In this document: positions 1 through 39,850 of the stretch, piece after piece | How positions within the stretch are numbered: position 1 is the first letter of the stretch | How the letters are laid out: the number at the start of each line of letters is the position of its first letter | NCBI GenBank assembly: GCA_948144175.1 | Contig: CANXME010002096.1 | Coordinates: 496,001-560,000 of the forward strand | Direction: 5' to 3' | Length of the DNA stretch: 64,000 bases | Origin: Closterium sp. NIES-65 | Taxonomy: Eukaryota; Streptophyta; Zygnematophyceae; Desmidiales; Closteriaceae | The notes under the pieces: model-generated | What the model was told of the DNA's origin: nothing | Database searches by the model: none | What the model saw: only the letters and a program-made list of their open reading frames with translations | Translations under genes and position numbers: made by a program

Positions 1-2241
1 TGCACCGCATCTCGTACTCGCGGTACTTGTCCCCCAGATTCACCACGTTCACATGCGCATACGAGTCCTCCTGTCCGGGCGGCAACTCTTGTCCTCTAGG
101 CTCGTAAATAACCTCCCCCGCACGCTTCCCCTTCTCCCCGCTGCTCCCAGTGACGTCGTAAATTCGTGCAAACATGGGCAGGGCCAAGCCGTGGTATTCC
201 TGGGGTGTGGGTGGTTGGAGAAAGAGCAAGCAAGCGTGGGAGGGTGTGGGGAGAGTGAGGTGGGAGGGTGTGGGGAGAGTGAGGTGGGAGGGTGTGGGGA
301 GAGTGAGGTGGGAGGGTGTGGGGAGAGTGAGGTGGGAGGGTGTGGGGAGAGTGAGGTGGGAGGGTGTGGGGAGAGTGAGGTGGGAGGGTGTGGGGAGAGT
401 GAGGTGGGAGGGTGTGGGGAGAGTGAGGTGGGAGGGTTCCTGTGGTCGACTGTTGACCCAAAAGTCCATCCAGATTGAGTCGCATTTGAGAACTCTCAAG
501 AATCTTGCCATGTAGCCGAGGCAAGGCAAACATTGCTGTAAGCAACCTCCCCCTACCACCACTCACCGCATGTCACCATTGCTCACTCATATAGCCAGCC
601 CAGGCACACCCACTTGCAACCCCCAACCGCCCCCCACCTCCCAGCACCCCTCCCCACCGCATACCTCCAGCCCAGTATACCCCCAACCGCCCCCCACCTC
701 CCCACCACTAAAAGTCCACAATCTCCGTCATGTATCCTAGGCACGCCCGTGTTGCAGACTGCACCCCCCCCACCCCCCCCCGCCCCCCCCCCCTCCACTT
801 CCCACCTCAAACCACCCCCCACCACCCAGCAGCACCCCCCATCCACCACTCAGCACCCCGCAGCACCGCTCACCTCCAGCATCGCATCCCACATCGGCTC
901 AAAGTCAATGATTGCCGTCATGTAGCCGAGGCACGCCGCCTGGTACTCGCTAGAAGACAAACCGTCCGGCAGCGGGTCGGGCGTGCGGTAAACGGGGAAG
1001 ACTATAAAGAGGCCGCGCGAAATGGGCCTCTTAGTGAAGGAGAGAGAGAGGTTGAGGGGGAACGGGGGCGTGAGTGCCCCCATTACTCCATAGTCCCGCG
1101 CTCGCGTCACCGCCTCTATTGTTGCTGGGCGGTTGGCTGGACGGGGGGAAGGGGTTGGTTGGGGGAGTGGGGAGAATGGGGGAGGGATAGGAGGAGGGAA
1201 TGGGGGGTAATGGAGGGAAGGAACAGCGGAGGGAAGTGGGGGAGGGGTGTGGAGAGAGAATGGAGAAAAGAAGGGAAGAAGAGAAAGGGGGAGAGAGGAA
1301 AGACATGATAGGGGAGGAAGAACACATGATGATTCATACTCATAGCACTCACTCCCCACTCACTCCACGCACACCCCACACTCACCCCACACTCACCCCA
1401 CACTCACTCCCCACTCACTCCCCACTCCCCACTCACTCCCCACTCACTCCCCACTCACTCCCCACTCACTCCCCACTCACTCCCTACTCACTCCCCACTC
1501 ACTCCCCACTCACTCCCCACTCACTCCCCACTCACTCCACACTCACCCCACACTCACTCCACAGTCACTCCACAGTCACTCCCCACTCACCCCACACTCA
1601 CCCCACACTCACCCCACACTCACCCCACACTCAGTCCCCACTCAGTCCCCACTCACTCCACACCCACCCCACACTCACCCCATGCCAGAAACTCCTGCAA
1701 CGCAAGCTGGTCTTCAGGCAGGTCAACCGAGTCAACGCCGGTCAACGGGTGGTCAGGATGGGAGGAGGGCGCCAGGAGGCCCTGGCCAATCACGGAGGCC
1801 GATGCGCTGGTGAGCACGATGGGGGCGAGCTCGGCCTGGCTGCCCGCACACATGCTGCCGTGCCTGTGATTAGAGGAGGCGGGTGGGGGGGATGGGGGAT
1901 GGGGGATGGGCGGACACGGCAGGCATGTGTGCACTTAAGCAGGCTTGGGCAGGGGGAGGGAGGATGGGGGATGGTTCAGGGGTGTTTCACTGTCGACACA
2001 TTGTGTTTCACTAAAAAAAAAAAAAATGTGTTTTACACTCGATATGATGTGTTTTGGGTTTCGGGTTTAACTGATGCAATCAACTGTGTTTTGCAGCCAA
2101 CGTACCTGATGCAGAAGTATCCGGGACCCCCAGTTAACGCTGCTGCTTTTCTGAGACATCTGGAAAAGCGTACCTGCTGCTTTGTCACGACATCTCAACT
2201 CAAAAATCGCACATACCTGATGCAGTCATTAGGGTCCCCTA

Positions 2242-2277
<36 letters not shown>

Positions 2278-4777
2278 TTCTGAAGACATCTCAACCGTAC
2301 GTACCTGATGCAATACCCAGGGTCCCCCAGCTGCTGCTGCTGCTGTTTCTCAAACGCCGGCCGCTCAGCCTGAGTCACCCGCCGGGAAAAGGAGACGGCA
2401 AACAGCAGCGGGCGGGCGTAGTCCGTCGCATTCACGAGGGACGAGAAGGTGGGCTGGTTGAATGGAAGAGATGGGGGGGGGGGGGGGGGGAGAGAGGAGG
2501 GGCGCGGGGAGGAAGGGGTGGAATGAAGTAGGAAGGTTGAGAAGGGAAGGACGATGGGTTATTAACAGCAGCGGGCGGGCACAGTCTGTCTTATTCACCT
2601 GCAAGCAGTAGGTGGGCTAATTGGATGGAGGGGGTTTGGGGGTTTGTGGGGGAAGGTGGGGGAAAGAGGAAACGGGTAAGGAGAAACATGGAAGGTGGGG
2701 GAAAGAGGAAACGGGTAAGGAGAAACATGGAAGGTGGAGTGGGGAAGGGGAAGGGAAAGGGGCAAGGAGGGAATGATGAGCGCAAGATAGGCGATTCAGC
2801 CACCAGCGAGCAAAGCAGAGCGGCTAACCTGGCGAGCGGCTGACCTGGCGAACGGCAGCCCTGGTGGGTGGCTGACCTGGCGGGCGGCTGATCTGGCGGG
2901 CTGCTGACCTGGCGGGCTGCTGACCTGGCGGGCGGCTGACCTGATCGAGAGTGGCGTTTGGCTTTTGGAAGTAGAAGGTTGAGACGACCGCTCCCAATAG
3001 CCGCACCTGATTGGGTGATGTGGTGTTCAGTGCGGTGGGATGGGATGGGATGCGATGGGATGGGATGGGATGGGATGGGATGGGATGGGATGGGATGGGA
3101 TGGGATGGGATGGGATGGGATGGGATGGGATGGAAATGCATGGGATGGAAATGAATGGGATGGAAATGAATGGGATGGAAATGGCTCTCCAGCAGCGTCG
3201 TCCACTTGTCACACTCCTGCTCCACTTCTGCCAGACTCGTCCTGTGACATAATTGACCAATCGCGTTCGCCCGTCGCTTCCCTCACCTCATCCCTTTCAA
3301 CCCCCAACCCCTCCCCACCACTCACCTGATCAGCGGATTGACGGAAGTGGCTCTCCAGCAGCGCCGTCCACTTGTCGCACTCCTGCTGCACCTCCGCCAG
3401 CCGCGCCGCCTGGAAGTTCTGATACAACACCCAGAAAACGACAAACGCCACCGCCAGGGTCACAGCCGCCCACATCAGCAGACACAGGAAGCGCGCCAAG
3501 TGGGTCAGCTCGAGGCATTTCTCCACGCTGCACTTGCTCAGAAGCTTCCACAGCCATCCTCGATTCCTCCATTCGTCCTCCTCATCCTCTGCGCTTCTCC
3601 TCCTCCTTCCCCCCCTTCTGCCCTTCCTGCCAAACGATCCGTGCTTCTGTCGTTTCTTGTCCTGAAAATTCCCTGTTTTCGTAAAAGCACCCCCGTTTCT
3701 GTCACACGCTGTTCCCCTCACCATCACCTCAACTTCCCCCCTTGGGATCTCCGCGCCGCCAGCCTCCCCCCTCACCCCTCCCCCTGCCCGTCCTCGGCTT
3801 CCCCAAGAACTTCTCCCGCCCCAACCAGCCCAGGAGGGGTAATCACCCTCAAAATTCGCATCTCCGCGTCTTTTCGTCGCCCATCCCTTGAAGGACCACC
3901 ACTTACCGCCGTTTTCTCTCCCTTCCCCTTCCTCCGCGGACATCCAGTCGCTATCCTCCCACATCGCATCCTCGTCTTCAGTCCCCTCGCTATAATCACT
4001 CGTGCTGCTGCTTCCGCCTGGCCCCCACGCACTCGACCGCTCCGACGGGCACGCGGACGGGCGCGGGGAGACCTGGACTCGTTGACTCGGTTGACCCCGT
4101 TGAACAGGATAACCCGTTTGACCTGGTTGACTTGGTTGACTCGAGTCGGATCTTTTCGCGAGTCCAACGGACGCCGCATTGGCCCCCTGCCTGCTCCGCT
4201 TCCCCCTTGCCCCAGCGAGGCGGTCGTCGCTTCCGCCGGCGCTACCCTCCCCGCCGCTCGAGGGCGCAGCTCCGCCTGCCCCTGTGATCCCCCCCGCCCC
4301 TGCCACGCGGGCTAATGCGTTCCGCGGCGTTGTCGCGGTTTCCCCCGCAGGCGGAAGGATTCCGCGGTACCGTCGCGCGCACCACGCGCGAGCGTTGGCG
4401 GCGGCGTTTCTAAGCGGAGATCTGGAGGTAAGCGGATGCGGGGACTGCGCTCTATCGCTGAGAGAGGGCGGAAGCAACGGGGAGGCCTCGCGACCGCGCT
4501 CTGCGGCGGGTCTTGCGCCGCCGTCCGCGCTTTCTGCTTGCGACGAACCGGCGACGGGCGCGGCGGTCGCGGTGGCGGGAATTGCGGCGGGAATTGCGGA
4601 AGGGATGGCAGCCGCGGCGACCGCGGGTGAGGCTTGACCGTCTGCGCCATTGGGCGAGAGGAACGACTTTTGAGACGTCTCAGAGAGCGAGAGGAACGCG
4701 TGCCACGAGCCGCTGCGACGCGCGCGGGCCGGCTTAGATTGCGCGGCACGTGGCGGAGGGGAAAGCCGGTCGGCCAT
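1..4777 (-). CDS. CHASE-domain membrane receptor, cytokinin-receptor (sensor histidine kinase) type; 5' part, runs off left edge
   Basis: Six exons on the minus strand: 4777-3326, 3006-2941, 2453-2305, 1863-1679, 1115-874 and 199-1. All junctions are GT-AG and all phases agree, giving about 764 codons before the edge. Exon 1 encodes roughly 425 low-complexity residues, then a membrane segment near residues 430-451 (LMWAAVTLAVAFVVFWVLY) and the start of the extracellular part. Exons 2-6 read like the CHASE domain of AHK/CRE1 receptors: VVSTFYFQKPNATLDQ, then DYARPLLFAVSFSRRV, then AELAPIVL, then RARDYGVMGALTPPF and GLFIVFPVYRTPD, then ARIYDVTGSS and KYREYEMRC. In land plants this domain binds cytokinin at the ER or plasma membrane and signals through a histidine kinase and receiver; those parts would lie beyond base 1 and are not seen. 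The start is the first ATG of the long open frame. The unusually long N-terminal region is odd for the family. A CHASE receptor with another output domain cannot be excluded. Confidence 0.88.
236..438. repeat. 24-bp minisatellite in the last visible CHASE-gene intron
   Basis: About eight copies of a 24-bp purine-rich unit (gtgggagggtgtgggg plus agagtgag on the plus strand). On the gene strand it is a pyrimidine-rich tract ending about 35 bases before the exon 6 acceptor at 199/200. It creates long repetitive reading frames in several frames that are not genes. Confidence 0.9.
460..760 (-). repeat. Decayed copies of exon 5 of the CHASE gene inside the intron
   Basis: The exon 5 stretch around 901-940 (encoding CLGYMTAIIDF) reappears, diverged, at 711-749 and again, shorter, near 499-527. 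Both keep the core that encodes a Cys-Leu-Gly-Tyr-Met-like string. Neither is flanked by a convincing splice pair, so they look like relics of local duplication. C-rich runs lie around them (about 770-800). Confidence 0.65.
1348..1678 (-). repeat. 11-bp minisatellite starting at the exon 4 splice donor
   Basis: On the minus strand exon 4 ends at 1679 and the intron opens GTGAGTGTGGG. This 11-base unit and close variants (AGTGAGTGGGG) then repeat for about 330 bases, so a GTGAGT-like donor recurs every 11 bases. The array sits directly on the exon border. Confidence 0.85.
2099..2290 (-). repeat. Two diverged copies of the exon 3 end and donor, with a CTG/CAG run
   Basis: The true exon 3 end and donor (about 2345-2299, ending GCATCAG then GTACGT) is repeated at about 2260-2213 and 2150-2099. 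Each copy ends GCATCAG followed by GTATGT or GTACGT and carries the same short intron piece. The middle copy holds an expanded CTG run (about 2241-2276). The intron therefore contains three donors in a row for the same exon end. Confidence 0.8.
2561..2735 (-). repeat. Copy of the exon 3 start plus a two-unit 36-bp repeat
   Basis: 2561-2627 matches 2397-2462 (start of exon 3 and its acceptor), with substitutions. Next to it a G-rich unit of about 36 bases occurs twice (about 2653-2735). Both lie in the intron between exons 2 and 3. Confidence 0.65.
2826..2940 (-). repeat. 17-bp minisatellite starting at the exon 2 splice donor
   Basis: Exon 2 ends CAG and the intron opens GTCAGCCGCCCGC. The stretch CAG-GTCAGC repeats about every 17 bases for some 110 bases, each unit restoring a CAG/GT exon-intron-like border. 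Confidence 0.8.
3031..3239 (-). repeat. GGGAT microsatellite and a copy of the exon 1 end
   Basis: 3040-3135 is a pure run of a 5-bp unit (gggat on the plus strand), followed to about 3180 by a longer diverged form. 3181-3239 is a diverged copy of 3346-3407, the exon 1 segment encoding QECDKWTALLESHF. All of it lies between exons 1 and 2. Confidence 0.8.
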
Positions 4778-5368
4778 GGACGCGTGCGCGTCGCACTACT
4801 TAAGAGACCAGCCTGAAGTGTCGGTCGACCAATAAATAGCAATACGAGTACTTATGAATGCTTATTTCTCGTAGTAGCACCAGCCCCGCTAAGGGCCTTA
4901 GCTACTTCGAGGTTGGAGTCACTTGGAGCCAGAGATTCTAACCTAAGGCCTCTGCCGCGTCGACTTGAGTGAATACTACGGTTCTTGGCCGTGCAATTGA
5001 TACGCACTACGAATGAATGATCGCCTTTCTCCACTGGACACACGCTTTAATAGTAGGAGGCACACTCGAGAGGACGTCAACGAGGATTGTCGAGTCCGCT
5101 CGTGATGACACTTAGTGGAGGATTATGAAGGGAAAGTATGCTGATCGTGGCTTGTAAAGGGAGACTTAGCGATAAAATCGTGTGTCTGTCAGTGGGTTGC
5201 GGTGAATCAAGCAACTCTGCGTGCCACCCACGTGGTGGTGGGGTGGGGGAGGAAGGAGATGGACAAGATCAGTTCCATTGCTCTCGTTTTGTCTTCACTC
5301 AACTCGGCCAGAGCAAAAGCGTTGCAGATAGAATTTACATCTCGCACCCAAGCCCAAGCGCAATGCAG
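4778..5368. other. 5' flank of the CHASE gene; no gene seen
   Basis: About 590 bases upstream of the receptor start. A TATA-like CTATTTATTG lies on the minus strand about 55 bases before the ATG, which is weak support for a promoter. No conserved coding frame was recognised. Confidence 0.4.
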
Positions 5369-7354: not shown

Positions 7355-8679
7355 CCCCTTTTACCGATTGTGCAATTATCCCCGCTATTTCAGCACACAG
7401 CACTGAATCGCTTGAGTTCATGTGGTTACCAACACCACCTCCCATTGTGTCGTTGCTCGAATGTTCCTCTTCGGCAGCCGCAGGCCCGGGCCGGCGGGAG
7501 ACACCGCGGCCACGGAGCGCAACACTCGCGTTCGTGCCGACAACGCGTGAACGGGATAGAGATGCAGTGGCGGTGGCAGCGGCGGGGGACACGTCGGGCG
7601 CAAGCGCAGACGTAGACGGAGACGAAAACGGCTGGCGCGAAGGAGTGACCAGGCGAAGCCGTCACTCGGCGGGGATTGGGTGAGCGTCGAGCCGACTGCG
7701 CTCGGCTTGCTGATGCCGCTACGCCATCGGGCCCTGCAGACACCGCTGATGCGGTGGTAGGAGACGCCACATCTGCCGGTGATGGGCGTCGCATAAGGGG
7801 GTGTTGGGTGGTTTCATTATTACATGCCACCTTGATGAATGGTTATATAAGTATCATCAATCTTAAATTATGAGCAGTTAAAAATAAGGATCACATCAAA
7901 CAACAATCAACACTTACTAGGAATGGTACGAGCCGGGGGAGGAGGCGCGGTAGTAGTTGCGGGAAGCAAGGGGCCCGCGAGCGCCGGGGGATGCGCATTC
8001 GCCCGATCCCCTAGGAACCTGTCCAAAATGTCATAGAAAATAGGCATTTTGGGGGGCTTCCCCTTCCCGGAAGGTTTGAGCAATAAATCCGACACCTTCC
8101 GCAAGTGAGCCTCCATACGGAAAACCTTGGCTTTTGTGGCTGTGAGACCAATGGCGCCATCCGGGGTGACGAAGACGGACTTGCTCGTCGAGCATGACGT
8201 CCCGGTTCTGGCCTTGCAGGCGGCACAAATTCCGATATTGCTCGTCGAAGTCGTGGCGGATCCACGCCAGCTGCATGACTTCCGCCGGCTCCCACCCTTT
8301 TTTGTCGCTAGGCGTCGCTGCATCGGCGCCGTCGTCAGCGCTGTCTTCGCCATCGCAGTCGATTTCGCCTGCGTCGAAGTACGAGAGGGTGTCGTCGTCT
8401 GCACGTAGAGGAGTGTTCGGGCTGTTAGAACATTATAGCTTATGCTTTTGTGTAGGCTGTAGTAGGGTATCCTATAGGGGGTACAACCCAATTAGGGTTA
8501 GTACTTGTACCCACTTCATTCATAGTTCATTCATTCTCGTTCTCATTTTCTCATGGTATTGAGCAAGTTCCCTCGTGGGAACTGTTCCTAGGGCCCATCG
8601 ATTCTTTTTTTTCCTGCCCGGGGCGCGTCCTACCCCTGCCCGAAGCGCGCCTAGGGTCGCGCCCTTCTTAGCGGCCCCG

Positions 8680-9660
8680 TCGCGTCACCCTTAGCGACCC
8701 GTCGTGTCGCCCTTAGCGGCCCGTCGCGCCGCCCTTACGGTCGCGTCGCGCCGCCCTAACGGCCGCGTAGCGCCGCCCTAGCGGCCGCGTCGCGCCGCCC
8801 TAGCGGCCTCTCGTGGCCCCGATCAGCCGCCCTTGCGGCCCCGATCCGCCGCCCTTTCACCAGCGGCCCCGTCGCCGCCCTTGCAGCGGCCCGTCGCCGC
8901 CCTTCTCACGGCCCCGCCGTCCCTTTAAACGGCCCCGCCGCCCTCACCTGCGGCCCGCCGCCCTTCCTGCGGCCCGTCGCCCTTACCTGCGGCCCAGCCG
9001 CCCTTACCTGCGGCCCCGCCGCCCTCAACTACGACCCCGCCGCCCTTACCTGCGGCCCCGCCGCTCTCAACTGCGGCCCCGCCGCCCTCAACTGCGGCCC
9101 CGTCGCTCTCAACTGCGGCCCGGCCGCCCTCAACTGCGGCCCCGTCGCCCTTCCCTGCGGCCCCGCCGCTCTCACCTGCGGCCCCGCCGCTCTCACCTGC
9201 GGCCCCGCCACTCTCACCTGCGGCCCCGCCGCTCTTACCAGCGGCACCGCCTCTCTCACCTGCGGCCCCGCCGCTCTCACCTGCGGCCCAGCCGCTCTCA
9301 CCTGCGGCCCCGCCGCTCTCACCGGCGGCCCCGCCACTCTGACCTGCGGCCCCGTCCCTTGCTGCAGCGCCGCCCGCTATCCGAGCTGCCCGAGCCGCCT
9401 CACCCAGCCGAGCAGCCGACCGCCGCGCCGCCCTGCAGCAGCACCGCCGAGCCGCCCGGGCAACCGAGCAGCCGGACAGCCGAGCCGCCGAGCCGCCCAG
9501 CAGCCAAGCAGCCGAGCCGCCCTGCAGTCGAGCCGCCCAGCAGCCGAGCCGCCGTACAGCCGAGCCGCCGGGCCGCCGAGCCGCACTGCAGCCGAGCCAC
9601 CTAGCCGCCCAGTAGCCGAGCCACCGAGCCGCCCTACTGGCGAGCCGTGCGAGCTGCCCC
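8680..9660 (+). repeat. Leader array of short GC hairpin units (Copia copy 1)
   Basis: Between primer site and gag lies about 1 kb of units of roughly 20-21 bases built on GCGGC-CCC-GCCGC. The two arms can pair and the loop varies. Some units keep pairing through a G-T wobble (GTCGC for GCCGC). Towards gag the array changes to a GAGCCGCC-type repeat. Long frames across it are low complexity and not taken as genes. Confidence 0.75.
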
Positions 9661-12600
9661 GTCCGGTAAGCACAGCGCCTCTTTCACTGCACTGCCCTCA
9701 CCCTACTGTTTGCACTGCTAGTCTACTGTGGTCATGGCTACCCCTAGTGTCCTCGCTTTTGACGCTGAGGGTCGAGCCATTGACTTTGACGTCTGGGTAG
9801 ATGACCCGCAGCTGTTCTTTCAGTGTGATAGGACAGACGGTCTCTGTCTTTGACCTCACCTCTGGCGCCTCTCCTGCCCCTGCTGCTGATGCTGACGCCA
9901 CTGTTCGCTCCCAGTGGGCCACGCGCGACGCTGCTGCACGTCTTCCTGTGCGTCGCCACCTCCCTACCTCCGAGCGTGCGCACTTTAGTCAGTACAAGAG
10001 TGCTCAGACCTTGTACGATGCTGTAGTTGCACGCTACTCCTCCCCTGCCACTGCTGCACTGAGCCGTCTCATGCTACCGTACCTCTTCCCTGACCTTGCT
10101 GCCTTTCCCACAGTCGCTGACCTCATTACGCACCTCCGCACTAGTGACACTCGCTACCGCGCTGCGCTTCCTGCTGACTTCTGCGCCAAGAACCCCCCCC
10201 CCCATGTACATCACCCTCTACTACATAGTCACCCGACTCCTTGACTCTCTTCTCGTAGTCAGGGACCACTTCCTCGCAGTGTGCCCCACCACCCTCACCG
10301 TTAACTTCCTCGAGAAGGACCTCCTAGCGGCGGAGAAGAGCATAGTCGCTGTAGGAACCTCTCGTGGTGACCCCCGCACCCCTGTCTTTGAGGGGTGTTA
10401 TCCCTCCCCCCTCTTGCCCTCTGTTGCTTCTGCTGCTGCGGCCGACCTCGTTGGTTTTGAGTCGGTTGGTGCTGCGTCTGCCCCTTCGGGGAAGCGCCGC
10501 ACAGGCAAGGGCAAGGGGGGCAAGGGCGCTAGAGGAGCTGGCAGGGGCGGTGGAGGTGGCGGTGGAGGCGGCGATGGGAGTGGGGGTGGTGGTGGGAGTG
10601 GCGGAGGGGGTGGGGGTACCGGTGGCAGCAGTGGAGGCGGAGGCAGCGGCGGTGGTGGAGGGAGCGGAGGCGGCGGTGGTAGCGGAGGCGGCGGTGGTGG
10701 CGGAGGCGGCGGTGGTGGCGGAGGCGGCGGAGGCGGCGGAGGTGGCGGTGGAGCCGGTCGCGGGTCTACGCAGAGGAGTGGCTCCGCTGGTGGTCCGCGC
10801 CAGCAGCAGCAGCGCGGTCGTGAGACCCTGTCCCTTCAGCAGCTCCATGAGTGGTACACTGCTCGCCAGCGGGGTGGGGGTTTTGGTCCGTGCACCTACG
10901 TCCTGCGCACCGGCGACCGTGCGGGTGAGCAGTGTGGGGGTGCGCACCCCACCCAGCACTGCTTTGGCCGCCTGACGAACGCGTGGCGTCACTAGCTCCT
11001 TGAGGCCACAGAGATCCCTCGCTAGGGGCGAGCTGTCTAGGGCGGGAGTTGCCATCTATGATCTTGATTCTGATGCTATTCTTTCTGCCATGTATGCTGT
11101 GGCTATTATTGATGAGGGTGATTGTTACCGGTGTTTCCAGCCCGATCCGCGCATTGAGGCTGCTGCCCTACGTGCTTGCAACGCTGCTGCTCTAGGTGCT
11201 AGTGCGTCTGCGTCCTCAAGTACTGGTGAGTCTGCGCTCTCAGGTACTGCGTCGGCTTCGGCCTCCCTCACCTTCACCCTTGACTCCGGGGCTTCTCGCT
11301 CCTTCTTTCGGGACCGCACCACAATCACGCCGCTTAGTCGGCCGGTTGCGGTGTCTCTGGCTGACCCCTCTGGGGGACTTGTCATGTCTCACTTCTCCAC
11401 TGTCCTCCCGTGTCCGGCGGCTCCCTCTGGCACCCTGTCTGGTTTCTACCTCCCCTCATTCTCTACGAACTTGGTGAGTGGTGCTGACCTACAGGATGGG
11501 GGAGTGCACCAGTTCACTCCTGCGCGTCAGCAGGTGACGCACTGCACAGAGGCTCGCACAGGCCGACACTTGGCTACGTTTACACGTCAGCCGGGGTCGA
11601 GCCTGTACACACTGACCACCGGGTCTCCTCCAGTTGCTGAGTCTGGTAGGGTAGCTGCGTTGGGTCAGGTGTTTGCTGCAGCGTCCAGGTCTGGTCCTGA
11701 GTCTGCCCCCTGTTCGTGTTGTCTCCTGTCTCACGAGACTCTCCTCTGGCACCACCGGCTTTTGTCACCCCTCTCTGCTTCGTCTCAGAGGCATGGCCTC
11801 CCGTCTTCTTGTTTCTCGTCTCTCCCGGTCCCTCCCTCCCCTTCCTCAGGTGCCTGGCCCTACCTGTGTCCCCTATGTTGAGGGGCGTCTGCGGGCTGCC
11901 CCTCACTCCTCCCAGTTTCCTCCGACAGAGGCCCCGCTACAGACGCTTCACATGGACGTGTGGGGCCCAGCCCGCGTCCATGGATAGGGTCACAAGCGCT
12001 AGTTCCTGCTCGTTGTTGACGACTACTCGCGTTACACCGTAGTCTTCCCCTTGCGCAGAAAGGGTGATGTCACTGAGGTGCTGATCGACTGGATCCGCGC
12101 AGCTTGTTTCCAGCTCAGGCAGAGCTTTGGCTCGGACTTTCCTGTTCTGCGTCTGCACTCGGCAGAGGCGGAGAGTTTTCCTCTGGCCTTCTGAGAGCCT
12201 ACTGTCGCGTATGAGGCATCCGTCAGACCTTCACGCTTCCGGACTCTCCGTAGCAAAATGGGATCGCTGAGCCCCACATTGGCATAGTCATGGACGTCGC
12301 TCGTATGTCTATGATGCATGCGGCTGCCCCCCATTTTCTGTGGCCGTTTGCGGTCAGGTACGCGGCGCATGAGATCAACCTCCATCCCAGGGTCTCCAGG
12401 CCGGAGACCTCCCCAGCCCTGCTGTGGACGGGGAAGGTTGGCGATGCGTCGGCGTTCCGGGTCTAGGGATCTCGGGCGTTTGTCCGCGACTTGTCTGCGG
12501 ACAAGCTGTCCCCTCGCCCTGCTCCCTGCGTCTTCCTGGGGTTCCCCCCTGACGCCCCTGGGTGGCAGTTCTACCACCCCACCTCTCGCCGTGTTCTGTC

Positions 12601-15600: not shown

Positions 15601-15659
15601 AGCTGGGTCTTGTCTCTGTCTTGCCTCACTTGCTCACCTCTTGACCTTACTTGTACTGT

Positions 15660-15660
<1 letters not shown>

Positions 15661-29300: not shown

Positions 29301-30790
29301 CAGTGGAGCCTCCGACGGCCAGTCTACGGTCTCCGCCAGGCACCGCGTGAGTGGCACGACACACTGAGGACTACGCTTGCGGCTCTTGGGTTTGCTCCTT
29401 CTACTGCTGACCCGTCGCTGTTTCTTCGCACCGACGCTTCCCTGCCGCCGTTCTACATCCTCGTGTACGTCGACGACTTGGTCTTTGCCACAGCGGACAC
29501 TGCTGGACTCGCCTACGTGAAGTCCGAGCTGCTGAAGAGACACACGTGCACAGACCTGGGTGAACTGCGCAGCTACCTTGGCTTGCAGATCACTCGGGAC
29601 AGAGCACGCCGCACCATCACCTTGACTCAGTCACACATGGTGCAGCAGGTCCTTCAGCGCTTCGGCTTCACGTACTCCTCGCCTCAGGCCACTCCTCTGC
29701 CTACTCGCCACTCACTCTCAGCTCTGCCTTCGGATGAGTCCGTAGAGTCGAGTGGTCCGTATGCAGAGCTTGTTGGCTGCCTCATGTACCTGATGACCTG
29801 CACACGACCTGACCTTGCATACCCTCTGAGCATCCTTGCACGCTATGTTGCTCCTGGGAGACACCGACCAGAGCACATGGCTGCAGCGAAGAGGGTATTG
29901 CGCTACCTGTGCAGTACGTCGGGCATGGGGCTAGTGCTTGGAGGGCGGAGTCCAGTGGTCCTTACAGGCCACGCGGACGCTTCTTGGGCTGACGACCAGG
30001 CTACGCAGCGGTCGTCACAGGGTTACACCTTCAGCCTTGGTTCCGGCTCTGTCTCGTGGCGGTCTACTCGCTCGTCTTCGGTTCTCGGCTCCAGTTGTGA
30101 GGCTGAGATCTACGCCGGGGCCATGGCTGCACAGGAGCTTCGCTGGCTCACCTACCTGCTGACTGACCTTGGAGAGCCGCCTCGTTCTCCTCCAGTGCTG
30201 TACGTAGACAACAAGGCCATGCTGGCCTTGTGTCGAGAGCAGCGCTTGGAGCACAGAACGAAGCACATTGCTCTCCGCTACTTCCTTGCTCGTGAGCTGC
30301 AGCAGCGTGGTCAGTTGCGACTTGCGTACGTGGCCTCTGAGGCCAACACTGCTGATGTGTTCACCAAGGCACTTGCGCCTTGTGACCATCAGCGCTTTTG
30401 TACCCAGCTGGGTCTTGTGCCTGTCTTGCCTCACTTGCTCTCTTCTTGACTTTACTTGTACTGTGACATATATACACCTGCTCTTGCTTGTTTTGCTTTA
30501 TATATATGTCTGTACTCTTGCATGTGAACTGGCCTTTGGCCTTGCTCTTGTGCTCGGACTGTGTGGTGACTTTGTGATCCACCCTGAGCTTTGTTTTGCT
30601 TTGCTTGACTGGTCTTGTGACCCCTAGTTCTCCCCCACTTTGCCTATGGGGGTGTGTCAGAACATATATACAGCTCATACTGTTGTGTAGGCTGTAGTGG
30701 GGAATCCTATAGGGGGTACAACCCAGTTAGGGTTTGCTACTTGTACTGATTTCATTTTCATAGTCACCATTCCTGTTTTCTTATTTCACA
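23380..30790 (+). mobile_element. Copia LTR retrotransposon (copy 3), near whole and very young
   Basis: LTRs 23380-23515 and 30655-30790 (136 bases each) look identical. The target duplication CTTAG is at 23375-23379 and 30791-30795. The primer site TGGTATAGAGCGGG follows the left LTR and a TATGGGGG purine run precedes the right. Parts in order: hairpin leader about 23.6-24.5 kb; gag from about 24558 (MATPSVLAFDAEG), glycine run about 25360-25585 and a Cys/His motif (CTYVL ... EQCGGAHATQRCF); protease with DSGAS about 26.1 kb; WHHRLGHPS and integrase (HSDRGGEF) about 26.6-27.4 kb; repeat-rich linker about 27.6-28.0 kb; reverse transcriptase (YVDDLVFA) and RNase H (HADASWADD) about 28.8-30.4 kb. 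Coding capacity looks nearly whole, with about one break. It sits in the right LTR of copy 2. Confidence 0.95.
23620..24480 (+). repeat. Leader array of short GC hairpin units (Copia copy 3)
   Basis: To about 23970 a unit of about 23 bases repeats around GCGGC-CCC-GCCGC. The arms are steady and the loop varies (CCC, CCA, TTT, TCC). From there to about 24280 the unit becomes CGGCCCGCCGCTGCACC-like, then a GAGCCGCC type up to gag. The plan matches copy 1. Confidence 0.75.
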
Positions 30791-31688: not shown

Positions 31689-34600
31689 ATGGGTCGCGAG
31701 GTCGAGTCCAGCGAGGTGGAGGTGGAGGCGTTACCCACGCCTCCTAAGTTCGATCTGAACATCGACTGGTCGCAAGTTAATCTCGAGGCGCTTCAGTTGC
31801 CTGAAGGCGAGGACTTCGACATTAAGAGGTGGGCTGGGTCTGAGTAGTTGGTTTCGCAAAATTCTCACGAATGATGGAGGCGGACTTGGCACGTGGAGAA
31901 ATCAGCACTGAGATCGGGTTTCGTACTTCCATCCGCTTGCGAGAAACGACGCTGGATTTCGAGTTAAGTGCCGATCACGCACTCCTGGCTGACCGTAAGG
32001 CGGATCAGTTCCGCAGTAAGCAGTCCGACAAGGAGGGACATTAAGAGGTGGGCTGTGTCTGAGTAGTTGGGGTCAAGATCGGGTTTGATACTTCCATCCG
32101 ATTTTTAGAATTGACGATTAAACCCGAATTTACGGCTGATCACGCACTCGTGGCTGACCAATATTCGGATTGGTTCTGCAGCAAGCAGTCTGGCAATAAA
32201 GAGAGAGGAGGGGGTGGAGGAAGGGAGAATACGGGGAATAGCAGCCTGACAAGGCGGAACATTGAAGTCGGGCGATCGCATGGCTCTTTTAGGGTTTCCA
32301 ATCTAGAGCATCACGCCGCAGGTTTTGTAAGTTTCCTCTGCGCGCCGATTAACCTGCTGACAGCCTTCTCGATGCGATCCGGTAACGGCATAGATACCAT
32401 GGCGGCTCGCAAACTGTTACAAGATCTGCACCGTTCGCTACAGGATCAGGGTAATTTCATAATCGTTTCTGGTTGCGCCTCCTCGTCTCCCCCCATCCAC
32501 TAGGTCCGCAGGAGAAACTTCCGAGTCGCCAACGAGTCCAATTTCCGTCTCCGGTCCGCTTTTTAGGCGCCTAAAATAATCGTCCGCAGGAGGGCTCCGA
32601 TGAGTTCAATTTCCTTTTATCTTTTTTTTTTTTCTGTTCGTTCTCACGTCATCTCCCCTTCCCCCCCACCCAACCTCCCATCCCCTCCCCCCCCCCCCCC
32701 TCTTCCTCCCCTCCCCTCCCCCAACCCTCTCTTTTCTCTCTTCCGTCCCTTCGTTTTCCCCCTGCGCGCAGCGAGGACGAGGAGGAGGAGCTGGAGGTGG
32801 TGGAGTCGGAGACGGGCTTCGGGAACGTCATCGTCGTCGACAACCTGCCCGTCGTGCCGCCCGAAAAGTTTGAGAAGCTGCAGACCGTGGCCAAGAAAAT
32901 TTTCGGGCAGATTGGGCTGATTCGGGAGGGGGGCCTGTGGATGCCCGTGAATAAGGAGACGCAGAAGACAAACGGATATGCCTTTATCGAGTATGCCACT
33001 CCCCAGGTACGAAATAAGTATTGACCAAGATGCGATGCTTTCGTTTTCGCCTCTCTGTCTGCGATTTCCTGCATTTGCATTGATTTCCCCGATTCTCTAC
33101 CCTTTTTCCGTCCCCTCTTTCGCGTGTTATCCGCCCCCCCTGTCTGTCCCATACCCATGTCTATCGTTCCTCTTTGTCGCTTCGTCGCTCCGTGGCTTCC
33201 CTTTTTGTTGCATGCAGGAGGCGCAAGCGGCGCGGGAGCAGATGGACGGGTACAAGCTGGACAAGGCGCACGTCTTTAAAGTTTCCATGTTTGACGACTT
33301 CGAGAAGTACGCGCGCGTGCCCGACCAATACGCGCCGCCGCCGCTCAAGGAGTACACGCCCTCGGTGCGTGGGTGTGGGAGAGGGGGGAGGGGGTGCGTG
33401 GGTGGGGCGGTGATGGTTAGGTGGGTGGGTGCGTTGGTGGGGTGGTGATGGTTAGGTGGGTGGGTGTGTGGTTGGGTTGGTGATGGTTAGGTGGGTGGGC
33501 GTGTGGTTGGGTTGGTGATGGTTAGGTGGGTGGGTGTGTGGTTGGGTTGGTGGATGGTGGGTGCGTGGGAGCGTGGGTGAGTGGGACGGATCGATGGAGC
33601 AACTAGGGCCAAGGGCGAGTTCGTCTGAATGCCGTCTTATCCTCGCCACTGCTGCGTGCCGCCGCTCAAGGAGTAGACGCCCGTGGTGGGCCCGCGAATG
33701 TGCGGCGGATGAGGTTTAGCTTGAGTCGGCTGGCGCAGATTATTCCCCCCTCATCTCCCCTCTTCTCCTCTCTCCTCCCCCCTTCCCCACCCCCATTCTT
33801 CCCTCCCCCTCCCCATTCCTCCGCGCAATGGTTCGCGGAGGGATAAAAGGGAGCTGTGTTCGTGAGTCGCCTCACTCCCCCCCTCCCTTTTACCCCCCTT
33901 TCTCCCCCCCCCCCCTCCCCTCCCCCTTCCCCCGCGCGCAGGATAATCCGCAATGGTTCGTGGCGGTCGAGATGTGTTGTTGAGTCGCTTCACTCCGCCC
34001 CTCCCTTTTACCCCTCCCTTTCCCCCTCCCTTTCCTCCCCTTTCCCCCCGCGCGCAGGAGAACCTGCAATGGTTCGCGGCGGACGAGCGCGGGCGCGACC
34101 AGTTTGTGATCCGCTTCGCGTCGGAGACCGAGGTCTACTGGAACGACGCGCGCGCCGCCAAGCCCGACCCCGTCTACCGCCGCACGGTAAGAGGGGGAGA
34201 GGGGGAGGGGGAAAGCCGCACGGTAGGGGGAGGGGAGTGGAGCGAGCGACGAGCAGCAGGGGGTGGCGGGAGGATGAGAGACCGCGGTCTACGGGAACGA
34301 CGCACGCGCTGCCAAGCCCGACCCTGTTTACCGCTGCACGGTATGAAGGAGGGGAAGGGGTTGAGGCGCAATAAAGGGATGAGGCGCAATGAGGGGATGA
34401 GGCGCAAGGGGGGATGAGGCGCAAGGGGGGGATGAGGCGCAAGGGGGGGAATGAGGCGTAGGGGGGGGATGAGGCGCAGGGGGCGGATGAGGCGCAGGGG
34501 GGGGGATGAGGCGCAAGGGGAGGTTGAGGCGCAAGGGGGGGAATGAGGCGCAAGGGGGGATGAGGCGCAAGGGGGGGAATGAGGCGCAGGGGGGGATGAG

Positions 34601-37600
34601 GCGCAAGGGGGGGAATGAGGCGCAGGGGGGGGAATGAGGGGCAGGGGGGGTACGAGCCGCAATGAGTGGATGATCCGCAGGGGGGGATGAGCCGCTTTGG
34701 CGGATGAGCCGCAGGGGGGGGAATGATCCAGCCGCGCCCACGGAAGGGGAAGGGGATTGAGCGGCATGGTTGGGGAGGGATGATAGACGCTATCCCATTC
34801 TTCTCCACCCCCCTCTCCACCCCCCTCTCCTACCCCCTCTCCACCCCCCCCTCCTACCCCCTCTCCACCCCCCTCTCCTACCCCCTCTCCACCCCCCCAC
34901 TACCCTCTCCTCCCAACCTCTCCCCCTCCTCCACCTTCTCTCCCCTCTCCCCGCCCTCCCCCCCTTCAGTTTTGGACGGAGAGCTTCGTGCAGTGGTCGC
35001 CGCTGGGGAGCTACCTCGCCACCATCCATCGCCAGGGCGCCGCCATCTGGGCCGGCTCCTCGTGGCAACGCATCATGCGCTTCGCACACCCGCAGGTGGG
35101 TTGTGAGGGTTGCATGGTGGGTTGTGAGGGGTGCATGGTGGGTTGTGAGGGGTACATGGTGGGTTGTGAGGGTTACATGGTGGGTTGTGAGGGTTACATG
35201 GTGGGTTGTGAGGGTTACATGGTGGGTTGTGAGGGTTACATGGTGGGTTGTGAGGGTTACATGGTGGGTTGTGAGGGTTACATGGTGGGTTGTGAGGGTT
35301 GCATGGTGGGTTGTGAGGGTTACATGGTGGGTTGTGAGGGTTACATGGTGGGTTGTGAGGGTTGCATGTTGGGTTGTGAGGGGTGCAGGTGGGTTGTGAG
35401 GGATACCTGGTGGAGCAGCCATCTGGGCCGGCTCCTCATGGCAACGCATCATGTACTTGGCGCACCCGCAGGTACCACCTTCCCCAGATATACCACCTTC
35501 CCCAGATAACTGCAGGTACCACCTTCCCCAGATAACTGCAGGTACCACCTTCCCCAGATAACTGCGCCCCTTGCTGCTCGTAATCTCCATGCCCTCGTGT
35601 GTCAAGCCTTCCTGCGCAGTTTTGGCCGCTCCATTCTTGCTCGCGGGCTCTATTCTTGAGTCGCCTATAAAACCGTCTCAGTTCACGCTCGATTCTTGCT
35701 CGCGGGCCCAAAGGAGAAAAAGGCGCGATCCTCCTTCGGTCCCACCTTTTTCTCCTTCCCTGCTCTTACCAACCAACCGTTTTCTTTACTCCTCCCCCTT
35801 AGCCCCCCACCCGCTCCTCTACCTTCCCCTCCTCTCCCGCTTTTCCCGCTCCCCCCTTCTCTCCGCCGATTCCACCTACCCCTCCTGTCTCCCATTTCCC
35901 CTTCCCTCCCTCTCGTCCCCTTCCCATCGGCCCCTTGCTCGTTACAATCACAGGCCAGGTGCGCCCAATTCACTTCTCGCTGGGGGAGCGGTTTCTGGGG
36001 ACGTACAACAGCCAGCCACGAGCCTGCTAATGCTGTGCCCTCACCATCTCGTGTGTCTCTTCTCCCCTCACGTTGTGCCGTGCTGCCGTATTCTCCGTCC
36101 GTTCCTCCTTTCCCCTCCTCAGGTGCGCCTGATTGACTTCTCGCCGGGGGAGCGCTTCCTGGTGACGTACAGCAGCCACGAGCCCGCTGACCCGTTTCCT
36201 TCTCTCTTCCCCCCTCTCCCTCCCGTCCTCCTCGCCCCCCCTTTTCCCCCTCCCCGCTCCCTCGCTCTCCTCCTCATCCCATATCTCCCTCATTCGCTAC
36301 AATCACTCCGCAGGTGCGCCTGATTAACTTCTTGCCCGGGGAACGGTTCCTGGTGACATACAGCCAGCCACGAACCTGCTAACGCTGTGCCCTCGCCTTC
36401 TCCTCCCCCTCTTCTCCCCCCCACGCTGTGCCGTGCGGCCGTATTATTCCCCATCCTTGTTGTGGTGTGCAGGTGCGGCTGATCGACTTCTCCCCCGGGG
36501 AGCGCTTCCTCGTGACGTACAGCAGCCACGAGCCCGCCAACCCGCGGGACACACAGAAGGTGGTGCTGAACGTGTTTGACGTGCGTACCGGCAAGAGCAT
36601 GCGCGAGTTCAAGGGCGCCGCGGACGACTTTGCTACTGGCGGCGCCGGTGGCGTTGCCGGCGTGCAGTGGCCTGTGTTCAGGTGGGTCATGTGGTCTTTA
36701 AATGGGTCCTGTGGTTTTCACGGGATCCTTGTGGTCTTCAGGTGGGTTTTGTGGTCTTGAAATGGGTTCTGTGGTCTTACGAGGGTCCTGTGGTCTTCAG
36801 TGGTCAACTTCTGTGTGTAGTGCTCGTCTCGCTTCTCCTTCCTCTTCCTCCCCGCTCCACTTTCTCCACTTCCTCTTCCTCCGCTCCCCTTCTCTCTTCC
36901 CCTTTTTTCTTTCAGGTGGGCCGGGGGGCGGGAGGACAAGTACTTCGCGCACATGGGGAAGAACTGTGTGTCGGTGTATGAGACGAGCACCATGGCCTTA
37001 CTTAACAAGACGTCCCTCAAGGCGGACCACGTGCACGACTTCACGTGTTCTCCTCTTTTACCTCTTCCCCTCCCCACCTCTCTCTCCTCCCCACCTCTCT
37101 CTTCTCCTCGACTCCCTATCCATTCCTCCTTCCCTTCCCGGACCCCTGTGCCCCCCCTCTCCCGGTCTCGCGCTGCTCTCTCTCAGGTGGGCGGGCGGGC
37201 GGGAGGACAAGTATTTCGCGCGCATGGGGAAGAACTGTGTGTCTGTCTACGAGACGAGCACCATGGCGCTGCTGGACAAGAAGTCGCTCAAGGCGGACCA
37301 CGTGCACGACTTCACGTGGTCGCCCGCTGAGCCCATCCTGGCCATGTACATTCCCGAGTCCAATGGCGGGAATCAACCTGCTAGGGTGAGTGCCTGTTCC
37401 CCTTAGTGAGTGCGGCACAGGGGGCAGCGAGTGCTTGAGTGAGCAGACGGGGCAAGGCGGACCACGTGCACGACTTCACATGGTCGCCCGCTGAGCCCAT
37501 CCTCGCCATGTACATTCCCGAGTCCAATGGCGGCAACCAACCCGCCAGGGTGAGTGGGATGGGGAGCAGCTTGACTTGGTTTCGCCCCTCCGCCTCTCTG

Positions 37601-39699
37601 CCCCGCTGCCTCTCTGCCCCGCTGCCTCTCTGCCCCGCTGCCTCTCTGCCCCGCTGCCTCTCTGCCCCTCCGCCTCTCTGCCCCTCCGCCTCTCTGCCCC
37701 TCCGCCTCTCTGCTCCCCATCGTCCTGAACCGTCTTACCTTCCCCCCTCTGCCTCTCTTTCTCTTTCCCTCCCCCTTTCTCGCCCTCTCGTCCCCCCCTC
37801 ACCACCCTCCCCCCATCCAGGTGAGCCTTGTTGCCATTCCATCGCGCGAGGAGCTGAGGCAAAAGAACCTATTCAGCGTGAGCGAGTGCCGCATGGCGTG
37901 GCAGAGCGCGGGAGAGTACCTGGCAGTCAAGGTTGACCGTTACACCAAGACCAAGAAAACCACCTACTCGGGCTTCGAGCTCTTCCGCATCAAGGAGCGC
38001 GACATCCCTATCGAAGTCCTTGAGCTGGAAAACAAGAACGATAAGGTCATCGACTTTGCGTGGGAGCCCAAGGGGCATAGATTTGCGGTGATTCACGGGG
38101 ACGGGCCGAAGCCGGACGTGTCGATTTACACGATGAAGCCGGCGGGGGCGGGCGGCGCGGGGGGCGTTGTGAAGGTGGCGAAGCTGACGACGCTCAAGGG
38201 GAAGCAGGCGAACACGCTGTGCTGGTCGCCCATGGGGCGGTTCCTGGTGCTGGCGGGGCTCAAGGGGTTCAACGGGCAGTTTGAGTTCTTCAATGTGGAC
38301 GAGCTGGAGACCATGGGCACGGGGGAGCACTTCATGGCCACCGATGTCGAATGGGACCCCACCGGCAGGTGAGAGATGGGGCTTGGTGTGGCGGGTGAGA
38401 GATGGGGCTTGGTGTGGCGGGTGAGAGATGGGGCTTGGTGTGGCGGGTGAGAGATGGGGCTTGGTGTGGCGGGTGAGAGATGGGGCTTGGTGTGGCGGGT
38501 GAGAGATGGGGCTTGGTGTGGCGGGTGAGAGATGGGGCTTGGTGTGGCGGGTGAGATGGGCAGGGTGTGCGGGTGCATGGCTGTGGAGAGAGGGGACTGG
38601 GGGGGGGGGGAGGCGGGGGTTGGGTATGTGAGGCGGGGCTGAAGGGGTTCAACGGGTAGCACACCCCTCTTCCATCCCTTCCCTGCATCTCCCCGCATCG
38701 CAAATAAGCTGCCTAACCACGTCACTGGCATCTGGTCCTTCAGCACCCGTTTTTCTGCTCTCTTCTGTTCCCTTCAAACCCTCCCCCTCCCCCCCCCCCC
38801 CCTGCCCCCCTTACCACCCTCTTGGCCCCATTCCTCCTCCCTCCCCTCCCCCTCCCCCTCCCCCTCCCCCTCCCCCTCCCCGTCACCCTCACCCTCCCCC
38901 TCCGCTGCCATCACCACCAGGTACCTAGCAACGGCGGTGACGTCGGTGCATCAGATGGAGAACGGCTTCCACATCTGGTCCTTCAGCGGCCGCCTGCTCT
39001 ACCAGCTCCCCCGTGACCGCTTCATGCAGGTGAGAGGGAGGAAGGCTCGTGCTGCCATGCTGCCATGCTGCCATGCTCCGAGTGTCCCCGTGCATTTCGA
39101 TAGTCATCATGGTTTTTTTTTTTGCATGTGTAAACAACAAGACAAACAGCGGACTCCCCTCTCTTGTTTCCGTTCCCACTTTTTGTCTCGATGTACCTTC
39201 TAGTCCTCCTCGTAATCCGCCTTGCATCTTTCCCTCACATTGTCTGCACTGCACTGCACTCCCCCTTCCCTGGACCTTTGAAGTGGCTCGAAAAAACCTT
39301 ACCGTCTCCCCTCGCCAACCCTCGCTGTGCCTTACGTCCTTGCCTTTTTCCTTATCTCTCACCTTCCAGTTCCTGTGGAGACCCCGACCCCCCTCCCTGC
39401 TGCCCGCGGAAAAAGAGGCAGAAGTTTCCAAGAACCTGCGCAAGTACAGCCGAAAGTACGAGGTGGAGGACGAGGAGGCCGGGGCGGCGTCAAGCGCAGC
39501 CGAGGTGGAGAGGCGGCGCATGGTGCTGGACGAGTGGCGGCAGTGGCAGGCGGAGTGGCGGCACATAGACGAGCAGGAGGAGAAGCTGCGGGCAGCGATT
39601 AGAGGAGGCGTGAAGGAGGAGGAAGAGGAGTATAAGGCGGAGGAGGTGGAGGTGGAGGAGATTATTGACATTCAGGAGGAGATTGAGAGGTTTGAGTGA
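31689..39699 (+). CDS. eIF3b: Translation initiation factor eIF3 subunit b, complete
   Basis: Ten exons: 31689-31828, 32772-33006, 33218-33364, 34058-34186, 34970-35095, 36473-36681, 37187-37385, 37821-38368, 38921-39029, 39370-39699. All are GT-AG, the phases agree, and the sum is 723 codons plus stop, near the roughly 710 of the plant protein. Start region MGREVESSEVE ... DWSQVNLEALQLPEGEDF matches plant eIF3b. An RRM lies at about residues 65-150 (VIVVDNLPVVPPEKF; NGYAFIEYATPQ), then a WD-like propeller (FWTESFVQWSPLGSYLA; VRLIDFSPGERFLVTY; RQKNLFSVSECRMAW; YSGFELFRIKERDIPIEVLE; AGLKGFNGQFEFFNVDELET) and a charged C-terminal tail after FLWRPRPPSLLP. The protein is a core scaffold of eIF3 in the cytosol and helps load mRNA on the 40S subunit. 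Introns are packed with exon-end relics. A Copia element lies 500 bases upstream. Confidence 0.96.
31821..32200 (+). repeat. About 220-bp tandem duplication covering the exon 1 end and donor
   Basis: ATTAAGAGGTGGGCTG at the exon 1 border (31821) recurs at 32041. The following sequence up to about 32000 is repeated with substitutions to about 32195 (both copies keep GATCACGCACTC and CTGGCTGACC or GTGGCTGACC). The second copy also carries a donor. A longer mixed tract, including a C-rich run near 32690, leads to exon 2. Confidence 0.85.
33365..33560 (+). repeat. Minisatellite of about 35 bp starting at the exon 3 donor
   Basis: The intron opens GTGCGTGGGTGTGGG. Units of about 35 bases with GGTGATGGTTAGGTGGGTGG and a GTGTGTGG/GTGCGTGG part recur about four times. 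Donor-like GTGGGT or GTGCGT strings appear in each. Confidence 0.8.
33653..33985 (+). repeat. Relics of the exon 3 end and exon 4 start
   Basis: 33659-33690 copies the exon 3 end (GCCGCTCAAGGAGTA then CGCCC). Near 33822-33850 and 33936-33970 are two copies of the exon 4 acceptor and first codons (CGCGCGCA ... GCAATGGTTCG), each followed by the same pyrimidine-rich stretch that precedes the true exon 4 at 34058. Confidence 0.8.
34187..34720 (+). repeat. Copy of the exon 4 end and a 17-bp minisatellite
   Basis: The exon 4 end (about 34125-34195) is repeated at about 34266-34345, including its donor (GCACGGTATG against GCACGGTAAG). A still shorter copy of the border (GCCGCACGGTAGG) is at about 34211-34224. 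From about 34363 to 34720 runs a unit of about 17 bases, GATGAGGCGCAAGGGGG, with variants. Confidence 0.85.
35096..35400 (+). repeat. 21-bp minisatellite starting at the exon 5 donor
   Basis: Exon 5 ends CCGCAG at 35095 and the intron opens GTGGGTTGTGAGGG. A 21-base unit beginning with this string and ending TTACATG or TTGCATG repeats about 14 times, so a full donor-like sequence recurs every 21 bases. Confidence 0.92.
35412..35560 (+). repeat. Copy of the exon 5 end with donor, then a short repeat of about 26 bp
   Basis: 35412-35473 copies exon 5 from CCATCTGGGCCGGCTCCTC to CACCCGCAG, followed by GTACC as donor. The next 90 bases are about four units containing ACCACCTTCCCCAGATA. Confidence 0.85.
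35950..36390 (+). repeat. Three decayed upstream copies of the exon 6 start
   Basis: The exon 6 start (36465-36545; acceptor CAG then GTGCGGCTGATCGACTTC) is preceded by copies at about 35951-36030, 36118-36190 and 36309-36385. Each keeps an acceptor-like CAG and part of the code for RLIDFSPGERFLVTYS. The copy at 36121 stays open and best conserved but has no donor where exon 6 would continue. I chose 36473 because only it runs on to the matched exon end. Confidence 0.9.
36682..36805 (+). repeat. Degenerate repeat starting at the exon 6 donor
   Basis: The intron opens GTGGGTCATGTGGTCTT and this pattern recurs about five times with drift (ATGGGTCCTGTGG, GTGGGTTTTGTGGTCTT and so on). One later unit restores TTCAG-GTGGGT, the same border as the exon 6 end. 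Confidence 0.75.
36910..37050 (+). repeat. Upstream copy of exon 7 without a donor
   Basis: A near copy of the first two-thirds of exon 7 (true exon 37187-37385) with its own acceptor (TTTCAG at about 36916) and an open frame for EDKYFAHMGKNCVSVYETST to DHVHDFT. It then diverges into pyrimidine-rich sequence and offers no donor. The downstream copy was chosen because it continues to a matching end and donor. Confidence 0.85.
37386..37710 (+). repeat. Downstream copy of the exon 7 end and a 16-bp pyrimidine-rich repeat
   Basis: 37452-37551 repeats the exon 7 end (DHVHDFTWSPAEPILAMY to NQPAR) with its donor GTGAGTGGG. Between the true end and this copy GTGAGTGC-like strings recur. From about 37590 to 37700 a unit of about 16 bases (CCTCTCTGCCCCGCTG) repeats before the exon 8 acceptor. 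Confidence 0.85.
38369..38560 (+). repeat. 26-bp minisatellite starting at the exon 8 donor
   Basis: Exon 8 ends ACCGGCAG at 38368 and the intron opens GTGAGAGATGGGGC. A 26-base unit beginning with this string repeats about seven times, so GTGAGAG recurs every 26 bases. Short relics of exon 8 and exon 9 text lie further on (about 38637-38660 and 38725-38745). Confidence 0.92.
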
Positions 39700-39719
39700 G
39701 GGGGAAGGGGAGGGGGTGC

Positions 39720-39850
39720 TGCAGAGGTGGAGAGGCGGCGCATGGTGCTAGACGAGTGGCGGCATATCGATGAACATGAGGAGTTTAAGGCGGAGGTGGA
39801 GGTGAAGGAGATGATTGACATTCAGGAGACTGAGAGCTTCGAGTGAGAGG
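39720..39850 (+). repeat. Decayed duplicate of the eIF3b C-terminal coding end in the 3' flank
   Basis: From about 39723 the sequence repeats the exon 10 end (GAGGTGGAGAGGCGGCGCAT, then GACGAGTGGCGGCA, then TTGACATTCAGGAG) with an internal gap, and closes with GAGTGAG like the true stop at 39697-39699. It lies after the stop, so it should be untranslated. Confidence 0.85.

Follow-up and report, generated by a model that had tools for sequence, protein, structure and literature searches.

Exon-border copies with coding-type divergence in the introns of a photosynthetic eukaryote

Introns of the genes analysed here hold copies of the adjacent exon ends that recur at a preferred spacing, differ from the working exon in the manner of coding sequence and are weakly constrained between haplotypes, and at two loci the haplotypes differ by a border whose flank has been swapped. 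The explanation we favour, with a probability of about 0.58, is that many borders lie in small tandem arrays whose units are exchanged, with parked and working exon ends swapping places. A further proposition, that exon borders turn over as units in many genes, with introns as a reservoir of spare ends and whole-unit swapping accompanied by synonymous bursts, is put forward tentatively.

The window, by which is meant the whole stretch of 64,000 nucleotides analysed (C1798:496001-560000, from an assembly of 874 Mb and 2400 contigs), contains the 5' part of a CHASE histidine kinase gene on the minus strand, copia elements and eIF3b. At least 146 light-harvesting family matches in the genome identify its source as a photosynthetic eukaryote, at a guess a desmid or other streptophyte alga. 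The second haplotype of the window is found on C1604, with colinear blocks that are mostly 94-99% identical and other blocks that are not colinear. The eIF3b gene (31689..39699, plus strand) was modelled with ten exons (31689-31828, 32772-33006, 33218-33364, 34058-34186, 34970-35095, 36473-36681, 37187-37385, 37821-38368, 38921-39029 and 39370-39699), giving an open frame of 723 amino acids with GT/AG borders; residues 57-712 align to the solved eIF3 subunit B and a PF08662 match lies in the frame of exon 8. The kinase part (874..4795, minus strand; donors near 3325, 2940, 2304, 1678 and 873), with exon limits drawn from the sequence alone, belongs to a gene that continues leftward beyond the window. 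Its CHASE name is the label of the first-pass annotation, and a Pfam scan of the long first frame gave no match. The kinase continuation in L010 (C1798:486001-496000) includes H-box pieces (MSHELRTPLNG), a 'VRGEVDTVLTMFIERF' exon and an ATPase piece (DTGEGIPYAAQRTI), each repeated several times. Several copia elements with GC-rich minisatellites of ~20-23 bp occupy positions 8600-15500, 17800-30500 and 50000-61900 of the window, and a 26-bp repeat at 46072-46464 (15.1 copies, 100%; TRF) has about twice as many copies in the other haplotype, judged by span.

The first-pass annotation had listed 18 copies of exon borders, twelve in eIF3b and six in the kinase, and all 18 are real, each scoring higher than any of 1000 shuffled versions of its stretch (dinucleotide walk, or plain shuffle where the walk failed); four are short, at 15-25 nt. 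Among those of eIF3b, all on the plus strand, the exon 1 end with the start of intron 1 recurs at 32037..32059 (22/23 nt; score 41, the shuffles reaching at most 31); the query included 12 intron nucleotides, and exon 1 alone scores 23 in intron 1, no higher than background. The exon 3 end is copied at 33658..33682 (24/25 nt). The exon 4 start has a far copy at 33825..33841 (16/17 nt), part of a ~118-bp unit (TRF period 118 at 33851-34087), and a near copy at 33942..33971 (25/30 nt; distance 116), and the end of the same exon is copied with its donor at 34278..34340 (56/63 nt), the alignment extending beyond the donor. The copy of the exon 5 end and donor at 35412..35471 (53/60 nt) stops 2 nt beyond the donor. 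Three copies of the exon 6 start with its acceptor are present at 35959..36030 (54/68 nt), 36123..36194 (65/72 nt) and 36314..36383 (57/69 nt). Exon 7 is represented by its start and acceptor at 36916..37053 (122/138 nt; whole-genome probe) and by its end and donor at 37453..37549 (91/97 nt), the six differences in the latter all being synonymous (0, 0 and 6 at the three codon positions). A copy of the C-terminal coding end lies at 39778..39846 (63/69 nt), beyond the stop codon, a position that lacks a splice site. The kinase copies, all on the minus strand, are those of the exon 1 end at 3174..3234 (54/61 nt), the exon 3 start at 2564..2616 (41/53 nt), the exon 3 end at 2217..2257 (35/41 nt) and again at 2106..2152 (38/44 nt), and exon 5 at 708..747 (32/40 nt) and, in a short copy, at 509..523 (15/15 nt; score 30 against a shuffle maximum of 27). 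The first of the two exon 3-end copies is situated inside an 88-bp border unit that haplotype alignment found to be absent from the other haplotype.

When every eIF3b exon was compared with every intron, 9/18 adjacent pairs scored at least 32, the highest score being 31 among the 72 non-adjacent pairs and 33 among the 90 antisense ones. A DNA probe of eIF3b exon 7 run against the 874 Mb matched two haplotype contigs only, each at the exon and at its two copies. An assembly in which diverged haplotypes were interleaved could yield local partial exon duplicates with synonymous differences, but the exon 7 copies occur on both haplotype contigs, and the copy-bearing genes are colinear between haplotypes while other blocks and array lengths differ; such an artefact is thus hardly credible as the source of the copies.

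Family searches for CCT chaperonin, adaptin and class-I tRNA synthetase genes provided candidates beyond the window, and a set of eight genes with 35 introns and 70 borders was made up of eIF3b, the kinase, five CCT genes (CCTa-CCTe) and one class-I tRNA synthetase, which was taken for ValRS. Exons of the six added genes were HMM matches trimmed to splice consensus; in CCTb, exon 7 starts without an AG, and the third 'intron' of CCTc and the first of ValRS must contain missed exons. The last or first 150 exon bases were sought on the sense strand of the adjacent intron, and copies were found at 43/70 borders, a share likely too high for the genome because the added genes were not picked blindly, search tables having already shown repeated exon matches in four of them (C1626, C1794, C1052 and C1749). 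The same search gave 0/70 in reversed introns, 2/124 in sampled non-adjacent introns and 3/210 in sampled introns of other genes. Copies occur at donor-side and acceptor-side borders, with 4/6 borders in CCTa, 9/12 in CCTb, 7/10 in CCTc, 5/8 in CCTd, 4/4 in CCTe, 3/4 in ValRS, 8/18 in eIF3b and 3/8 in the kinase. The splice site is reached by 55/79 copies, so that the earlier claims of frequent local tandem duplication across exon borders, enlarging introns, and of copies that keep the splice site and leave decoys are both borne out in the eight genes. In a less selected sample of eight exon pieces from six further CCT-family genes, clear copies were observed in three genes (C2400, C1727 and C2050), short ambiguous copies in one (two haplotypes, C1103 and C1667) and no copies in two (C326 and C584). 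These eight genes and eight further exon pieces are the material on which the genome-wide claim was examined.

The distance from a border to its nearest copy has a median of 162 bp (IQR 146.5-209; 43 borders), with 28/43 nearest copies falling within 110-180 bp, 34/43 within 116-224 bp and one below 116 bp. A filtered autocorrelation peak at 100-175 bp is seen in six genes (66, 87 and 81 per thousand, with neighbours at 23-24), and no peak of this range was found in copia or in other parts of the window. For eIF3b the strongest bin is 150-175, short periods being nearly equal, and the kinase region has no prominent peak. Two versions of CCTe exon 1 alternate along the intron (exon, 123, 266, 407 and 556 bp), in a pattern resembling higher-order repeats. 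Over the 35 introns, border copies make up 18.3% of the bases, non-simple local duplicates of any kind 48.2% and short-period arrays 14.9%. The copies themselves stand, but the statement that introns are built from them was too strong, and the notion of a habit specific to splice borders finds no support, given the share of non-simple duplicates and the copy beyond the eIF3b stop codon; border copies may be a tolerated subset of a general local duplication.

One genuinely border-specific feature is real, namely short arrays anchored at donors. A short-period array begins within 8 nt of 7/35 donors, where 0.64 would be expected and the maximum in 2000 draws was 4, and 0/35 acceptors have such an array ending there. 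The periods of the donor-anchored arrays range from 11 to 60. By TRF and the donor test they include, in eIF3b on the plus strand, a 21-bp minisatellite from the exon 5 donor (35095..35413), a 26-bp minisatellite from the exon 8 donor (38364..38556) and a 20/60-bp array from the exon 6 donor (36677..36800), and, in the kinase on the minus strand, a 16-bp minisatellite from the exon 2 donor (2820..2943) and an 11-bp minisatellite from the exon 4 donor (1346..1678). Homology between exon and copy ends 2-8 nt beyond the splice site in 39/79 copies. These sharp ends could be taken to mean that copying is bounded by splice sites, an interpretation that we do not adopt: looser alignments often continue into the intron. 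The flanks have a p-distance of 0.24 (36 pairs) compared with a null of 0.31, and nothing here is built on their homology.

The copies had been described as decayed versions of the adjacent exon, and their differences bear a coding signature instead. Exon-copy differences number 158, 120 and 517 at the first, second and third codon positions, and in 79 exon-copy pairs 490 of the 784 differences are synonymous and 294 non-synonymous, where ~305 synonymous differences would be expected had the copies come from the present exon and then evolved neutrally. After matching by mutation class and CpG context, the 72 pairs that are 80% or more identical give an omega of 0.19, and three further loci give 0.24 (44 synonymous and 34 non-synonymous differences). 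Decay of CpG as the source of the third-position bias was ruled out by the class matching. A likelihood fit to the 79 pairs places dS at ~0.21 when dN is zero (2 delta lnL of 218 against a fit with no intercept at slope 2), and leaving both intercept and slope free improves on an intercept-free fit with free slope (5.5) by 2 delta lnL ~48. An 11-copy array in CCTc was excluded from these counts and fits. In a three-way comparison 20/92 exon-only differences are non-synonymous, 14 at three borders whose exons may be wrongly delimited. Simple tandem duplication, in which the intron copy of a present exon end later decays neutrally, is the mechanism of the first-pass annotation. It accommodates the local, sense and tandem arrangement, and a minority of copies with low dS fit it (e.g. 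CCTe D1 at 266, CCTe A3 at 157 and the CCTc array). For most copies it is disfavoured by the synonymous excess, and by several that show 9-16 synonymous and 0-1 non-synonymous changes (CCTc D3, ValRS D3 at 458 and CCTe D1 at 556), and overall we consider it improbable.

Between haplotypes the copies behave differently. They differ at a rate of 0.27%, excluding six differences misaligned across the 88-bp kinase unit (0.41% with them), compared with 0.26% in exons and 0.48% in other intron sequence; as this is about the exon rate, it does not alone show the copies to be free of constraint, which is the part of the synonymous and non-synonymous pattern. Leaving aside the ValRS genes, the copies contain three synonymous and ten non-synonymous haplotype differences (omega 1.04, CI 0.27-5.89); adding ValRS gene 1 brings the counts to 9 and 17, and adding gene 2 as well brings them to 15 and 25 (omega 0.52, CI 0.26-1.06; p 0.0013 against 0.19 and p 0.037 against neutrality). 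An exchanged unit of ValRS gene 2, with 10 synonymous and four non-synonymous differences, was excluded from the pooled count. Because the haplotype pattern is near-unconstrained and the exon-copy pattern is of coding type, the copies are taken to be little constrained now and to have acquired most of their divergence as working sequence. Were they working alternative exon ends under selection, coding-type divergence, retained splice sites and a corrected haplotype rate as low as that of exons would be expected; however, the haplotype differences are less synonymous than an omega of 0.19 predicts (p 0.0013 to 0.0049), and inspection of the inner edges of the 79 copies by eye revealed no systematic AG on donor-side copies or GT on acceptor-side copies, which makes this a very improbable account.

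Most copies look like former or parallel working borders that were parked rather recently. Several lineages are found at one border, with mutual omega of ~0.05-0.21. ValRS exon 3 is known in seven versions, two in working position and five parked, across two paralogs, and these are 0.37-0.75 apart in dS and 0.01-0.10 in dN. A one-paralog origin of the ValRS copies was rejected, as at sites separating the two genes the copies match either. Turn-taking within one isolated array as the sole cause was likewise rejected, by the argument that dN is too low for dS. Since no two units at a locus could stay in use together for so long, many copies were probably supplied by parallel gene copies; a dS of at least 0.3 with a dN near 0.02 needs parallel working copies, and for eIF3b none was found in this genome. 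The second ValRS-like gene (L051 and L053) lies ~55 kb from the first. The haplotypes differ at 122/2705 aligned bases in this gene and at 21/2699 in gene 1, and at L047:8861-8975 in gene 1 there is a 72-bp exon-like repeat where they differ by ~73 bp.

Swaps of working borders are visible in two cases, kinase exon 3 and the ValRS paralog, and each may reflect either gain or loss of a unit. In the window haplotype (C1798), kinase exon 3 is followed by its own flank and then by the parked exon end and donor with a different flank. In C1604 the alignment lacks 88 bp, and the exon joins directly to the flank that accompanies the parked unit of C1798. In the ValRS paralog, units of ~190 bp with the exon 3 end number four in C1749 and three in C946. 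The working-position exon 3 of C946 resembles unit 1 at 9/9 informative sites up to offset 161, and from offset 179 onwards resembles intron copy 2 at 25/28 sites (10/10 in the exon and 15/18 beyond the donor), the identity of its 55-nt flank being 98% with copy 2 and 74% with unit 1. As exon 3 of C946 has two in-frame stops, this swap may have affected a gene in decay. One of the parked copies of ValRS gene 1 is nearly identical to gene 2 over one half and the flank and clearly more diverged over the other half, a mosaic produced by exchange between paralogs.

The swapping of units that we favour would proceed as follows. Many borders would sit in tandem arrays of a unit composed of the exon end, the splice site and a stretch of intron, mostly 116-224 bp in length, and out-of-register exchange or slippage would add or remove units. 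Splicing would use only the unit that runs on from the exon body, and the rest would be parked in the intron under little constraint. Shared exon sequence would allow an exchange to fall within or at the end of the exon part, and a parked unit could thereby become the working border, or a working border (whether from that locus, from the other chromosome or from a paralog) become parked. Most copies would have been made by such exchange, many of them supplied by parallel gene copies, i.e. alleles, paralogs or relatives. Besides the stops in C946, the absence of a parallel eIF3b copy and the 20/92 non-synonymous exon-only differences, several points count against this explanation: the haplotype omega with both ValRS genes departs from neutrality, the corrected copy rate is like that of exons and below that of other intron sequence, three of the six further CCT-family genes have no clear copies, and the swaps of working borders seen number only two. 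The working exon ends of diverged homologs, brought together by hybridisation or polyploidy, might alternatively have been inserted beside the resident border with no swapping within arrays. Such capture would explain why copies seem to begin with dS ~0.2 and little dN, why several lineages are found at one border, and why homology so often stops 2-8 nt past the splice site, as if the source introns could not be aligned. On its own, however, it does not account for the ~150-bp unit and the alternating arrays, the two haplotype differences show exchange within arrays, and no eIF3b source gene was found in this genome; as the only process it seems unlikely. Swapping, capture from relatives or both may have produced most of the copies.

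The structures described here are mirage-type border duplications. The term 'mirage' has been applied to tandem duplications of exon-intron boundaries in amphioxus Adh3, a case credited to Canestro et al. 2002, and in the globins BflGb6 and BflGb9 (PMC3087553). According to the part of that paper devoted to them, the units measure 150-160 bp in the globins and 10-72 bp in Adh3, involve 5' and 3' boundaries and in many cases keep AG/GT; BflGb6 haplotypes carry six and three units, regular splicing is undisturbed by RT-PCR, somatic length instability is reported for Adh3, and the authors suspect a wider occurrence in cephalochordates (PMC3087553). As in amphioxus, the units found here span the border, on both boundary sides, with the splice site included in most copies, their lengths comprise a long class (median 162 bp, with a wider spread than 150-160 bp) and short periods of 11-60, and haplotypes differ in copy number (the 88-bp unit; four and three ValRS units). 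Unlike amphioxus, where some genes are reported, copies are here present at well over half of the borders of eight genes in a photosynthetic eukaryote, and the coding-type divergence and working/parked swapping seen here are not described in the amphioxus section on mirage. Intron gain through tandem duplication of exon sequence that carries a proto-splice site is reported for Drosophila (PMC2891723) and potato (PMC4974935). Coding sequence with splice-like sites is likewise tandemly duplicated here, but the units accumulate at existing borders and no new intron is seen, whereas in those cases a new intron arises inside coding sequence.

Introner elements are dispersed, similar elements that mass-produce intron sequence. 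Intron sequence is mass-produced here as well, but each gene repeats its own exon ends, and dispersal in the manner of introners was not observed, the exon 7 probe having matched its own locus only, on two haplotypes, and introns of other genes having matched in 3/210 comparisons. In the open-access literature searched, no comparable density in ordinary genes outside amphioxus, no coding-type divergence of such copies and no border working in one haplotype and parked in the other was found. Border arrays offer a route by which introns may lengthen and splice borders be replaced without loss of function, and by which introns keep a record of other working exon states. At many introns here, the spliceosome must pick the working border among close decoys. 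The unit of ~150-160 bp shared by amphioxus and the present genome points to a common size-setting step, for which the length of a nucleosome or of an Okazaki fragment would be a guess.

A very young border array is present at L044:5112-6539, where a 124-bp unit containing an acceptor plus 56 nt from the start of a CCT exon recurs in ~11.5 copies at 99% identity.
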